A stretch of DNA of 47,908 nt. Source: Candidatus Saccharimonadales bacterium (GTDB taxonomy: Bacteria; Patescibacteriota; Saccharimonadia; Saccharimonadales; Saccharimonadaceae). The stretch spans positions 1 through 47,908 of the forward strand of contig DATHGB010000012.1 in assembly GCA_035317825.1 (NCBI GenBank), in the 5' to 3' direction. The notes below the pieces were generated by a model. The model was not told the DNA's origin, did not search any database, and saw only the letters and a program-made list of their open reading frames with translations. Shown here one piece after another: positions 3,624-25,224 of the stretch; position 1 is the first letter of the stretch; each line of letters starts with the position of its first letter. Made by a program: the position numbers and the translations under genes.

Positions 3624-5126
3624 TTATGGTATAAACTTTAAGATTATCCCGAGTCCCTTTGCGCCAATACCAGCAACATCGACATCAACAGTGACAAGAT
3701 CACCCGTAGTAACAGTATCGTTATTGGTGTCCACAACAGCAGGTGTAGCAGCTGTATATGACGTATTTTCGTTAGCATCAATAGTAATAGGCGTCGAAAG
3801 CATGTCAGCATTTCCGTTTGTTATATTCCTGATCTGGATTGTAGGCGTACCCGATGTAGATACCGAAGTAACATATGCATCAGCATCAGCGAGGTTCATA
3901 GCGTTTAACTCTGCAGAAATCGCAAAGGTAAACTTTCCATCGCCGATCGTAAGGATTGTTGCGTCATCCATCAGCTTCACCTGAACCGTTTTATCGCTGC
4001 TGCCGCCACCGCTTGGTGCTGCCCATTTAACACCGCTCGCCTGGGTTGAATCGGCCGTAAGCACATGAGTGTCCGTGCCTACTGGAAGCCGGGCTGGGGT
4101 ACTTGCAGCCGTGGCAACATACAGATCACCTTTTGTCGTTAAGGTAGATGTATCTGTTTTCCCATTCAAAGCCGTCGTCGTAGCCGCACTGACTGGCTTA
4201 TTCACGTCACTGGTATTGTCAACGTTGTTAAGGATCAGGTCTGTCTTGACTTGGGTTGGGGTACGGTTAGTCCAGACACCAGCTTTTCGTTGCAGGAGGT
4301 CGTCGTTCGTGGGGGTAAGGGCTGCTATGGCAGTAAGGTCTGGGTCTATTGGTTGGATGGTCGTGCCGCTTGCGGCGGTAATACGGCCGTCGGCCCGGGT
4401 GTCGGCGGCGGCGTTAAAGTCGGAGATAGTTGAGGCGGTTTGCGTCCCCGTGTGGTTAGCTCTGTTTAGGAGGGCGGCGTCGGAGGAGTTGGCGGTAGCG
4501 CCAGTAGCAATGCCAGCGAGTTTGGTTTTTTCAGTGGCGGAGTATTGTTTGTTTGTCGTACCATCGGGTATGTCGTCTTGGGTGGCGGCAGTCCCTGCCG
4601 TCACAAGCCCTTTGGCGTCGTAGGTGATTTTGGTGTTGGTGGCACCTGTGATGGCACTGTTAGCTGTGACCTTAGTGGCAAGGCCAGGGACGGTAGGTGA
4701 TCCCGCTGTTCCACCTAAATCACCAGCGAGTTGAAGTTTCCCCTTAGTGGAGGCGTCAGCATCAGGAGTACCAGCCGAAGCGGTGGCATCAACATATGAC
4801 TTATTGGCCGCCTGCGTAGGGCTGCCAGGCGTAGGGACGATCGGCGATGCGGTAAACGTTTTAATTCCATCAATGGATTCATTGCCAGTGTTATGAACAA
4901 CGGCTAAGTCAGCCGCTTTGGATACTAGAGCAGCTGGAAGTCCCGCAACTTTGGCTTGAGAAATAGAAGAAACCTGCGTATCACCAATGCTTCCATCTTG
5001 AATCGCATTGGCATCGACTGCATCGGCTTTTAACGTTCCGTCGGTATCGTGCGAGATAGACAAATACTCGTTAAGGATACCTCCCCAAACGCTATCATCA
5101 CCACCTGGACTTGGAAGACGTGCCAT
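3624..5126 (-). CDS. Phage-tail-fibre-like protein
   Basis: A 500-residue protein that reads like a phage tail or neck fibre. The N-terminus (MARLPSPGGDDSVWGGILNE) is an attachment-type module; residues about 40-370 carry fibre repeats such as DGTTNKQYSATEKTKLAGI and NHTGTQTASTISDF, well known from tail fibres, and IKTFTASPIVPTP followed by AANKSYVD, a collar-type signature. Residues about 375-500 form a separate Asp/Thr-rich globular end. It has no signal peptide and no phage capsid, portal or terminase genes nearby, so it is either a leftover of a prophage or a host-adopted tail-like or surface fibre. The middle of the gene (about 4250-4500) is clearly richer in G+C than its ends, which suggests a recombined or borrowed segment. 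A weak AAGGAA precedes the start. Confidence 0.7.
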   Translation of the reverse strand: MARLPSPGGDDSVWGGILNEYLSISHDTDGTLKADAVDANAIQDGSIGDTQVSSISQAKVAGLPAALVSKAADLAVVHNTGNESIDGIKTFTASPIVPTPGSPTQAANKSYVDATASAGTPDADASTKGKLQLAGDLGGTAGSPTVPGLATKVTANSAITGATNTKITYDAKGLVTAGTAATQDDIPDGTTNKQYSATEKTKLAGIATGATANSSDAALLNRANHTGTQTASTISDFNAAADTRADGRITAASGTTIQPIDPDLTAIAALTPTNDDLLQRKAGVWTNRTPTQVKTDLILNNVDNTSDVNKPVSAATTTALNGKTDTSTLTTKGDLYVATAASTPARLPVGTDTHVLTADSTQASGVKWAAPSGGGSSDKTVQVKLMDDATILTIGDGKFTFAISAELNAMNLADADAYVTSVSTSGTPTIQIRNITNGNADMLSTPITIDANENTSYTAATPAVVDTNNDTVTTGDLVTVDVDVAGIGAKGLGIILKFIP

Positions 5127-5360: not shown

Positions 5361-6020
5361 ATGAGAATGAAGAAATCAATTTTGATGCGTGCCATTACGA
5401 GCCTGTGTCTTGTGATCGGACTATGCGTAGGGTTAATACCCGCCGGAACAGCATCTGCCGCAGACCGTAACGACTTTACCGGGGTTCGTTTTTGGAACCC
5501 ACATCTATGTATCCTAGTACACAACGGTGTCTGGGAATCGTGGCCAATCGCTACCGCGGCAGCCTATTTTGACTCTAGTGGCGTCGTAGATATAGTCGTT
5601 CGCAAGGAAAGCCAAGGAGGATGCGGCAACTATTGGCCGTTCCAAGTATTACATGTTCGACAGGCCAACCTAGGGAATAATACGTGCGGAACACATGGAG
5701 GAACAGGGACACCTTACCCGTCAACTGATCACCCATGGAATCCCTACTATGAGTACGTCTATGGCTACCCGTCAGGTGTCGGTGGGCATGCAACACCTTC
5801 CATGACGCTTAATTCGGGTTGGTCCGCATGTTATAACTCGAATATACGACTCGCAAATACTGCTTCACAGAGTATAGGCAACGCACTCGGGCTTAGCCGA
5901 TTATATGAGGCAAAGTCTACACCAACGGTAATGCTTGACTCTGATTACAATAACGCACGCACGCCTTGGGCAACCGCTTATGATCGAAACAATCTTTACG
6001 CTCTTTACTACAGACTATAG
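5361..6020 (+). CDS. Secreted matrixin-like protein with degenerate zinc site
   Basis: A 219-residue exported protein. Residues 1-34 are a signal peptide ending ASAA. The mature part has six Cys (residues 50, 88, 109, 157 and others nearby), which may form disulfides. Near the C-terminus the segment QSIGNALGLSR (170-180) aligns with the matrixin/metzincin helix HExGHxLGLxH, but all three zinc histidines and the catalytic Glu are replaced (Q170, S171, N174, R180). TVM (189-191) sits where the Met-turn would be, and the end (DRNNLYALY) also matches matrixins. It therefore looks like an inactive relative of an M10-type protease, perhaps used for binding. The start has a strong GGGAGG ten bases upstream. 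A hairpin terminator follows directly. The family call rests on this short C-terminal match and is moderate. Confidence 0.55.
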   Translation: MRMKKSILMRAITSLCLVIGLCVGLIPAGTASAADRNDFTGVRFWNPHLCILVHNGVWESWPIATAAAYFDSSGVVDIVVRKESQGGCGNYWPFQVLHVRQANLGNNTCGTHGGTGTPYPSTDHPWNPYYEYVYGYPSGVGGHATPSMTLNSGWSACYNSNIRLANTASQSIGNALGLSRLYEAKSTPTVMLDSDYNNARTPWATAYDRNNLYALYYRL

Positions 6021-6041: not shown

Positions 6042-6076
6042 TTAAAATACCTCGCAACTTTAGCGAGGTATTTTAA
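6042..6076. terminator. Hairpin terminator after the matrixin-like gene
   Basis: A 14-bp inverted repeat (TTAAAATACCTCGC, 6042-6055, with its complement at 6063-6076) around a short loop. The A/T arms make it able to work in both directions. Confidence 0.85.
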
Positions 6077-6104
6077 TTGCATTATTTTAATGATATGTTA
6101 TAAT
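6077..6104 (+). promoter_or_regulatory. Promoter of the GC-rich orphan cassette
   Basis: TTGCAT (6077-6082), a 16-nt spacer and TATAAT (6099-6104) preceded by TG at 6096-6097 (extended -10). Transcription should start near 6111, giving a leader of about 50 nt that contains the hairpin GATTCC-AATAA-GGAATC (6117-6133). Confidence 0.6.
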
Positions 6105-6159
6105 TTATCTGAGAGTTGATTCCAATAAGGAATCTGCGCATCGCACGGAAGGTTTCATC

Positions 6160-6405
6160 ATGACCTTGCATTTGTTCGAACCGCTCCCGATCCAGGATGA
6201 GGACTTCGTCCCGGCCGAGACCGGCAACGAGTGGCCCTTCGGCTGCTTCGACGGCTCGGCCAGTGATCCCGGTCCGGACGACGAGCACGGAACCGACGGC
6301 AACAGCGGCGAGGACCGGAAGGCCGAGGACGGTCCCGATGGGCCGTACGACCGGACCGGCAACGAGTGGTTCTGCGAGCCCGACGGGCTGCTCGTCGCAG
6401 CCTAA
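6160..6405 (+). CDS. Orphan GC-rich small acidic protein with a duplicated TGNEW motif
   Basis: An 81-residue protein of unknown function. It is very acidic and rich in Asp, Glu, Gly and Pro, and has no signal peptide or membrane helix. The pentapeptide TGNEW occurs twice (about residues 21-25 and 66-70); each copy is followed by Phe, Cys and D-G within a few residues, and the underlying 15 bases are identical. Third codon positions are almost all G or C, very different from the neighbours and similar to high-GC actinobacteria, which is why this frame was chosen over the other open frames in the same stretch. A promoter stands upstream and a strong hairpin follows. AAGG lies about ten bases before the ATG. 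It could be a transferred gene or a peptide precursor; there is no proof of expression. Confidence 0.5.
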   Translation: MTLHLFEPLPIQDEDFVPAETGNEWPFGCFDGSASDPGPDDEHGTDGNSGEDRKAEDGPDGPYDRTGNEWFCEPDGLLVAA

Positions 6406-6420
6406 CCCTCAACAAGACAC

Positions 6421-6521
6421 GCTACGCACCACCCCCGCGTAGCTGCGTCGCCGCATCTTGGTGATGCTAACGCCAACCAAGATGCGAAGAACCCCCGACC
6501 GCCACAAGCGGTCGGGGGTTC
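6421..6521 (+). other. Three consecutive hairpins downstream of the GC-rich small gene, last one terminator-like
   Basis: Three inverted repeats follow each other: 7 bp (6421-6427 with 6437-6443), 11 bp (6452-6462 with 6476-6486, 13-nt loop) and 14 bp (6489-6502 with 6508-6521, loop CACAA). The last has a G+C core and is probably the transcription terminator, though it lacks a clean T run. Within the second, GCATC (6453-6457) can pair either with GATGC at 6463-6467 or with GATGC at 6481-6485. Confidence 0.6.
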
Positions 6522-6671
6522 TCTCATATTCTGCCGTTCTAACCGAAAGGATTCGCACGCACTGATACGCTAGAATAACGAATTCTCCTGGTTCTAAAGA
6601 GGAGATATTATCCTTAAAATTGCAATCCTATTCTTATTCCGTCATAGTAAAAAATGAAATAAGGAGGTGTT

Positions 6672-24594: not shown

Positions 24595-25224
24595 ATGGCG
24601 TACCTTACTGAAGCAGAGCAACTCGAAATAGTGAGAAAAGTGCTCACAGGTGACTTGCGACGCGATGACTTCGCGACGCGGCCTCTCTGGTCACTTCCCA
24701 CACTGACCTATGTAGGCGTCGCTATGACGCTTGCTGGGCGGTACAGGATCAACGACGACAATCAGGTCTGCGTACCCCTCCAGAAGATTCTCAATGAAGT
24801 CATTCTGATGGGCTTCGAGGAGGTGGAGAAGGAGTACACCAGGGACGAGTACGAGGACTACCAACTACGCGAATCGGTAAGGCGTCTCAAGCTTTGCCGC
24901 AGAGCACCTCAGGGTAGTCGTCCCTACCAAGTAGTGCTCGACCCGTCGCCCGCACTTCAATCCCTCATCGCCGAGCACCAAGACAGCCCAAAGATCGAAG
25001 ACTTCTTCAGAGACATGGCTGAAGGCTTCGCGCGCCATGCAGGCTGGAAGATGAGGCGTGAGATGCAATTTCTCCAGCGAGAGCAAGAGGAGAAGCGGCT
25101 ACGTCTTCAAGGGCCGATGACCCGTGAGGCGCATCAGCTTGTCGCGCGGTTCAAGGAAAAGTACGGTTTCGACGGCCTTGCTGCTCTACGCGCTCAGCTC
25201 GACGAAGCGCAAGAGCAACAGTAA
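24595..25224 (+). CDS. Orphan soluble helical protein in a self-contained cassette
   Basis: A 209-residue protein that I do not recognise. It is hydrophilic and mainly helical, with no signal peptide or membrane segment. Residues 1-60 look globular (EAEQLEIVRKVLTGDLRRDDF), 75-105 are acidic (EEVEKEYTRDEYEDYQLRE), and about 140-209 is probably a long helix or coiled coil (MRREMQFLQREQEEKRLRLQ). Codons are richer in G/C at third positions than in the neighbouring genes. It has its own promoter, a ribosome site (AAGGAGA) caught in a small hairpin, and its own terminator, so it behaves as an independent cassette inserted between the PBP gene and ruvC. Function unknown. Confidence 0.7.
   Translation: MAYLTEAEQLEIVRKVLTGDLRRDDFATRPLWSLPTLTYVGVAMTLAGRYRINDDNQVCVPLQKILNEVILMGFEEVEKEYTRDEYEDYQLRESVRRLKLCRRAPQGSRPYQVVLDPSPALQSLIAEHQDSPKIEDFFRDMAEGFARHAGWKMRREMQFLQREQEEKRLRLQGPMTREAHQLVARFKEKYGFDGLAALRAQLDEAQEQQ

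Follow-up and report, generated by a model that had tools for sequence, protein, structure and literature searches.

The stretch of DNA analysed here, referred to as the window, comprises 47,908 nt of a Candidatus Saccharimonadales genome (GCA_035317825.1, contig DATHGB010000012.1, positions 1 to 47,908 of the forward strand). The bearer is a tiny bacterium, probably a parasite. The window contains a short GC-rich unit built around an orphan ORF with two TGNEW motifs. According to annotation and our own interpretation, the neighbouring genes encode a secreted protein, an iron-permease-like protein, a sortase, a Nudix hydrolase and RNase Y. The rny-nudix-sortase block is conserved, while the gene order to its left varies among relatives. 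The unit and its surroundings consist of the following features:

6042..6076, plus strand: native, AT-rich hairpin that terminates the upstream gene and bounds the intergenic region on the left (perfect inverted repeat of 14 bp, fold z -8.7)
6077..6104, plus strand: promoter-like site, TTGCAT, 16 nt and TATAAT preceded by TGT (extended -10; from the sequence)
6118..6134, plus strand: small leader hairpin GATTCC/GGAATC (fold of 6095-6175)
6147..6152, plus strand: Shine-Dalgarno-like GGAAGG, 7 nt ahead of the ATG (from the sequence)
6160..6405, plus strand: orphan ORF of 81 aa with two TGNEW motifs (translation, composition, codon periodicity)
6181..6518, no strand: GC-rich island (Viterbi segmentation and genome-wide comparison)
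6219..6241, plus strand: 23-nt repeat, copy 1, with TGNEW copy 1 (repeat search)
6354..6376, plus strand: 23-nt repeat, copy 2, with TGNEW copy 2 (repeat search)
6420..6443, plus strand: first 3' hairpin, approximate limits (fold of 6400-6525)
6452..6486, plus strand: second 3' hairpin, CGCATCTTGGT/ACCAAGATGCG (fold and inverted-repeat search)
6488..6522, plus strand: terminal GC-rich hairpin without a T-tract (15-bp perfect stem)

A synteny search by way of the iron permease gave no result, and one by way of rny showed conservation on the nudix-sortase side only. No empty allele of the TGNEW site was found among relatives, because both neighbours of the unit are lineage-specific. Other genes of the window also deserve mention. 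The secreted protein encoded at 5361-6020 (plus strand, 219 aa) has no Pfam match; its C-terminus, QSIGNALGLSRL...TPWATAYDRNNLYALYY, presumably resembles the end of a matrixin-type metalloprotease that has lost its HExGH site. At 3624-5126 (minus strand), a 500-aa protein weakly matches a phage lower-baseplate N-terminal domain as well as the DUF5907 repeat and may, judging from these, be a tail-fibre-like surface protein. A further ORF with raised GC content (0.56, GC3 0.64) is located at 24595-25224 on the plus strand.

An earlier reading of the sequence alone had described a jump in base composition at this site and an 81-residue product with two copies of TGNEW, and both observations hold. 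Two-state Viterbi segmentation delimits an island at 6181-6518 with 68% GC, compared with 45.7% for the genome. The best 246-nt stretch reaches a GC content of 0.70, about 5 sd above the window mean (0.456, sd 0.048), and the island ranks third among the GC-rich 250-nt peaks of the whole 1.116 Mb genome. Within the ORF, GC depends strongly on codon position (GC1/2/3 of 0.68/0.46/0.87, p = 2e-7), and GC3 is even along its length, at 0.85-0.89 in each third. The repeat reported as 15 identical bases is present and proved to be one base longer: GACCGGCAACGAGTGG occurs at 6219-6234 and 6354-6369, 16 identical bases within the 23-nt repeat of 87% identity. Likewise, Phe, Cys and Asp-Gly follow each TGNEW in the order described, but their spacing is unequal, TGNEWPFGCFDG in one copy and TGNEWFCEPDG in the other. 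A repeated 5-mer appears in 0.5% of shuffles of the protein (930 of 200,000), so the duplication is unusual without being overwhelming. The protein is acidic, with 12 D and 9 E against 1 K and 2 R (21 D+E, 3 K+R) and a pI of 4.05. It is predicted to be mostly disordered; the AlphaFold model, computed from the single sequence with no alignment, is of low confidence (mean pLDDT 53).

The codons had been called actinobacterial in appearance, and this is borne out. On a synonymous codon log-likelihood scale trained with a small set of 13 Nonomuraea and Nocardioides ORFs against ORFs of the own genome, the TGNEW ORF scores +0.47 to +0.48 per codon, within the range of Nonomuraea and Nocardioides genes (+0.45, sd 0.24). 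The own genome has 883 ORFs with a length of 150 aa or more, and none of them reaches this value (mean -0.95, sd 0.24, maximum 0.45); among all its ORFs of at least 60 aa that pass the GC filter, the TGNEW ORF scores highest. GC3 alone agrees (0.87 versus 0.44, sd 0.07).

The two sides of the ORF differ in character. Upstream, the proposed native-looking promoter TTGCAT-16-TATAAT stands in part: the region is AT-rich and native-like and the -10 element at 6099-6104 is perfect and extended (TGTTATAAT), but the -35 element at 6077-6082 is poor (3 of 6 matches) and a promoter scan reports no site here. TATAAT occurs nine times on the ORF's strand of the window, and finding one within 120 nt upstream has a chance probability of about 2%. 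The leader hairpin at 6118-6134 is no more stable than shuffled sequences (fold of 6095-6175, z -0.8). Downstream, a stretch of 126 nt holds three hairpins (fold of 6400-6525, z -10.3). A fold as strong as that at 6488-6522 is seen at only one of 230 native 3' ends of the genome, and GC content is back at background immediately past it. This hairpin is the probable terminator of the unit, and the right border first placed at 6521 corresponds to its end (6522).

We could not find a relative of the 81-aa protein in Pfam, NCBIfam, PHROGs, PADLOC or PDB. Neither the protein nor its DNA has a relative in phages, plasmids or IMG/VR; on the actinobacterial side, the sensitive searches covered phages and plasmids. 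The own lineage was sampled at family (198 genomes), class (392) and phylum level (380), with overlap between the samples and with the own genome as the one member of its genus; the protein was present in the own genome only. Patescibacteria gave weak matches (E 0.003-0.09 per genome), about as many as a search of hundreds of genomes should yield. Scanning 84,980 genomes (genome_contigs) for exact 8-mers returned a single match, in Nocardioides (L012); it reads antisense to a histidine kinase gene and was rejected as a chance match. The search suggested by the sequence-only reading, against actinobacterial and CPR proteins, thus yielded no relative, with actinobacterial chromosomes covered by the exact 8-mer scan, which would detect close relatives and could miss a diverged one. 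The same reading had suggested looking for the cassette at other sites. The genome has no second copy, but it contains about twenty unrelated units constructed in the same way.

These sister units were found in the own genome, a draft of 30 contigs in which GC islands were sought everywhere except in the last 0.67 kb of contig 25, and in G022, a complete single-contig relative. The own genome has 39 GC islands totalling 20.6 kb. Selecting ORFs by codon usage and by GC at each codon position, blind to the composition of the flanks, gave about 22 unit-type ORFs here and about 27 in G022. One of them encodes a DUF397 protein (PF04149, E 8e-20) on its own GC island (C3:18653-18892, L142) that is 72% identical to a protein of Nonomuraea gerenzanensis. 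The XRE-like gene that precedes DUF397 in Nonomuraea is absent here. DUF397 is found in two of the 198 genomes of the family, the own and G022, which carries it twice (L143, L144). A WhiB gene (PF02467, E 1e-25) likewise has its own island (C15:15090-15425); with a GC3 of 0.65 it is not among the 22 units, and the WhiB family is present in 42 of the 198 genomes (L145-L154). DUF397 and WhiB are actinobacterial families, WhiB being typical of actinobacteria and their phages. Most of the remaining island ORFs have no family match. Of 27, the DUF397 protein and a HIT protein are the only unit proteins of the own genome that match G022. In G022, we also noticed a GC-rich cluster (148807-152388, L163) encoding proteins that by eye are ThiF-like, JAB-like and ubiquitin-like; possibly, it is an imported ubiquitin-like system.

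The units share the asymmetry of the TGNEW unit. In a comparison of the 22 and 27 units free of hand selection, GC content of the 120 nt upstream equals that of native genes (0.41 versus 0.41, p 0.66, in the own genome; 0.40 versus 0.42, p 0.15, in G022), while on the downstream side the best 50-nt fold in the first 120 nt is -26 kcal/mol for units and -14 for native genes. This excess of 3' hairpins is significant in both genomes (p 1.7e-9 in the own, 3.8e-11 in G022), and the stems have a GC content near 0.70, compared with 0.53 in native hairpins. When 42 units were aligned by start codon and by hairpin end, some antisense or operon frames having been removed manually, GC content was 0.33-0.46 further upstream, 0.47 over the 20 nt that directly precede the start and 0.36-0.42 past the 3' hairpin; this profile takes the strongest hairpin within 130 nt and is therefore biased towards a GC drop behind it. 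The foreign stretch in the units is transcript-shaped. We found no sign of a common recombination site: apart from two tandem neighbours, no 14-mer is shared among the flanks of 15 units, among the matches listed. The best terminal inverted repeat of the TGNEW unit measures 5 nt, which is at chance level. Terminal inverted repeats are not supported as a general unit feature: repeats of at least 9 nt occur in 5 of 44 units versus 2.6% of mismatched pairs, led by two units at the atp site described below.

One conserved site is occupied in several genera. Between two genes that we take to be atpD and atpC, five genera have units of differing appearance, each with an ORF for a small membrane protein (GC3 0.60-0.84) and a hairpin at its end:

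G000 C25:98569-99079 (L217): atpD-atpC unit of the own genome; further loci are L218, L220, L221 and L229

These units are bounded by inverted repeats with the core GATAGATAG/CTATCTATC. In one genus, the core reads GATAGGGAGCAA/TTGCTCCCTATC, so that both arms of the repeat changed together. Most units, that of TGNEW among them, lack repeats of this kind. The five proteins are only weakly alike. If they form one fast-evolving family, GC-richness is maintained there and recent import is unnecessary; if each was inserted separately, the site is a hotspot.

The sequence-only reading had considered transfer from an actinobacterial host plausible. Transfer as a process in this genome is upheld by the DUF397 protein with its 72% identity to Nonomuraea, by WhiB and by their own islands, whereas the TGNEW protein itself has no actinobacterial relative that we could find. 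To judge from these sequences, this lineage has indeed received genes from actinobacteria, independently of the TGNEW orphan. The presence of about twenty single-gene units with sharp terminator ends suggests repeated uptake of foreign genes, one transcript each. For the TGNEW unit, we somewhat favour the view that it is a transcription unit of one gene that came fairly recently from a high-GC donor of actinobacterial type and encodes a small, acidic, largely disordered protein of the cytoplasm with a duplicated motif, possibly for docking. The acquisition of the gene is well supported, by composition, codon usage, unit borders and membership in the genome-wide set; we infer an actinobacterial donor, and the gene is probably expressed. 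The foreign portion would extend from about 6140 to 6522, from the ribosome-binding region through the gene's own GC-rich terminator, and the promoter ahead of it would be the AT-rich, native-like one. Because the Trp/Phe/Cys motif is duplicated and disorder is predicted, these being its two grounds, the TGNEW-(P)F-x-C-x-DG segments might be paired linear docking motifs for a partner protein, which we regard as a long shot.

Several observations do not fit easily with acquisition. As no search produced a relative, the donor is unproven. Moreover, donor DNA should bring GC-rich upstream sequence, which neither this unit nor any of the others has. Drifting flanks would mean drifting GC3, and the third codon positions have not drifted; therefore, the promoters of the donor either did not come along or were removed or replaced. 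Their absence can be explained if a functional native promoter was selected for and useless flanks were deleted.

It is also conceivable, if unlikely, that the GC-rich units including TGNEW are not recent at all and form a class of ORF plus hairpin kept by selection, for instance because it favours stable RNA or because the products or RNAs act in a high-GC host. The atpD-atpC units in five genera, with their co-changing inverted repeats, suggest that high GC can be maintained, and transcript-shaped borders are common to all units. On the other hand, nearly all units differ between genomes, as turnover by acquisition predicts, DUF397 and WhiB are actinobacterial families, and the weakly similar proteins at the atp site may stem from separate insertions. 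Saccharibacteria of this clade might repeatedly capture transcript-sized units (ribosome-binding site, ORF and terminator, no promoter) from high-GC actinobacteria by a dedicated cassette mechanism or an RNA intermediate, placing them behind native promoters, with the TGNEW gene as one case. We consider this quite improbable.

It seems very unlikely that the ORF is untranslated and the island a structured RNA or a leftover fragment. The strong fold of the 3' 126 nt (z -10.3) and the lack of protein relatives would fit, but the codon-position pattern is strong, even along the ORF and in the exact frame that follows the Shine-Dalgarno-like site, such hairpins also follow other unit ORFs, and Rfam gave no match near its gathering score, with weak sub-threshold matches alone. 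The likeness to precursor peptides raised earlier found no backing either. An orphan RiPP precursor, with residues 1-20 as leader, two TGNEW cores, acidic spacers and an enzyme encoded elsewhere, would account for a duplicated short Trp/Cys segment in an acidic carrier; yet no precursor or leader family in NCBIfam or Pfam matches, the immediate neighbours include no modifying enzyme and the genome has no LanC-like protein, so that we give this idea very little credence. Contamination is unlikely, and an assembly or binning artefact that joined a piece of a high-GC genome into the contig is hardly credible, the draft state of the genome (30 contigs) notwithstanding, given that the piece is shorter than 400 nt, lies inside one contig between stretches of native DNA and has transcript-shaped borders, and given the same unit type, with DUF397 twice, in single-contig G022.

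Genes that an epibiont has taken from its prey are candidate tools against that prey, and their codon usage could indicate which host an uncultured lineage has. Should further genomes confirm the transcript-sized borders, a gene-capture mechanism in ultra-small bacteria would become directly testable. In the part of the literature covered, by titles and abstracts, we found no paper on WhiB or DUF397 in Saccharibacteria or on such units.

Among known systems, RiPP precursors with repeated cores share the short repeated segments and the acidic carrier, but the TGNEW unit has no nearby modifying enzyme and no leader family. The actinobacterial DUF397 and WhiB genes of the same genome are also small and of actinobacterial type, lie on their own GC-rich islands and are followed by a hairpin; they belong to recognisable families, unlike the 81-aa protein. 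Integron gene cassettes likewise consist of one ORF followed by a structured element, with no GC-rich promoter of their own, whereas here no shared recombination site is seen and every unit comes with an upstream sequence and a hairpin of its own. Orphan genes that were acquired horizontally and keep donor-like codons show the same foreign composition, sporadic presence and lack of relatives in close genomes. The TGNEW unit differs from them in being limited to ORF and terminator behind an AT-rich, native-like promoter and in being one of a whole set: ordinary as a lone orphan, it is more interesting as a member of a set with transcript-shaped borders.
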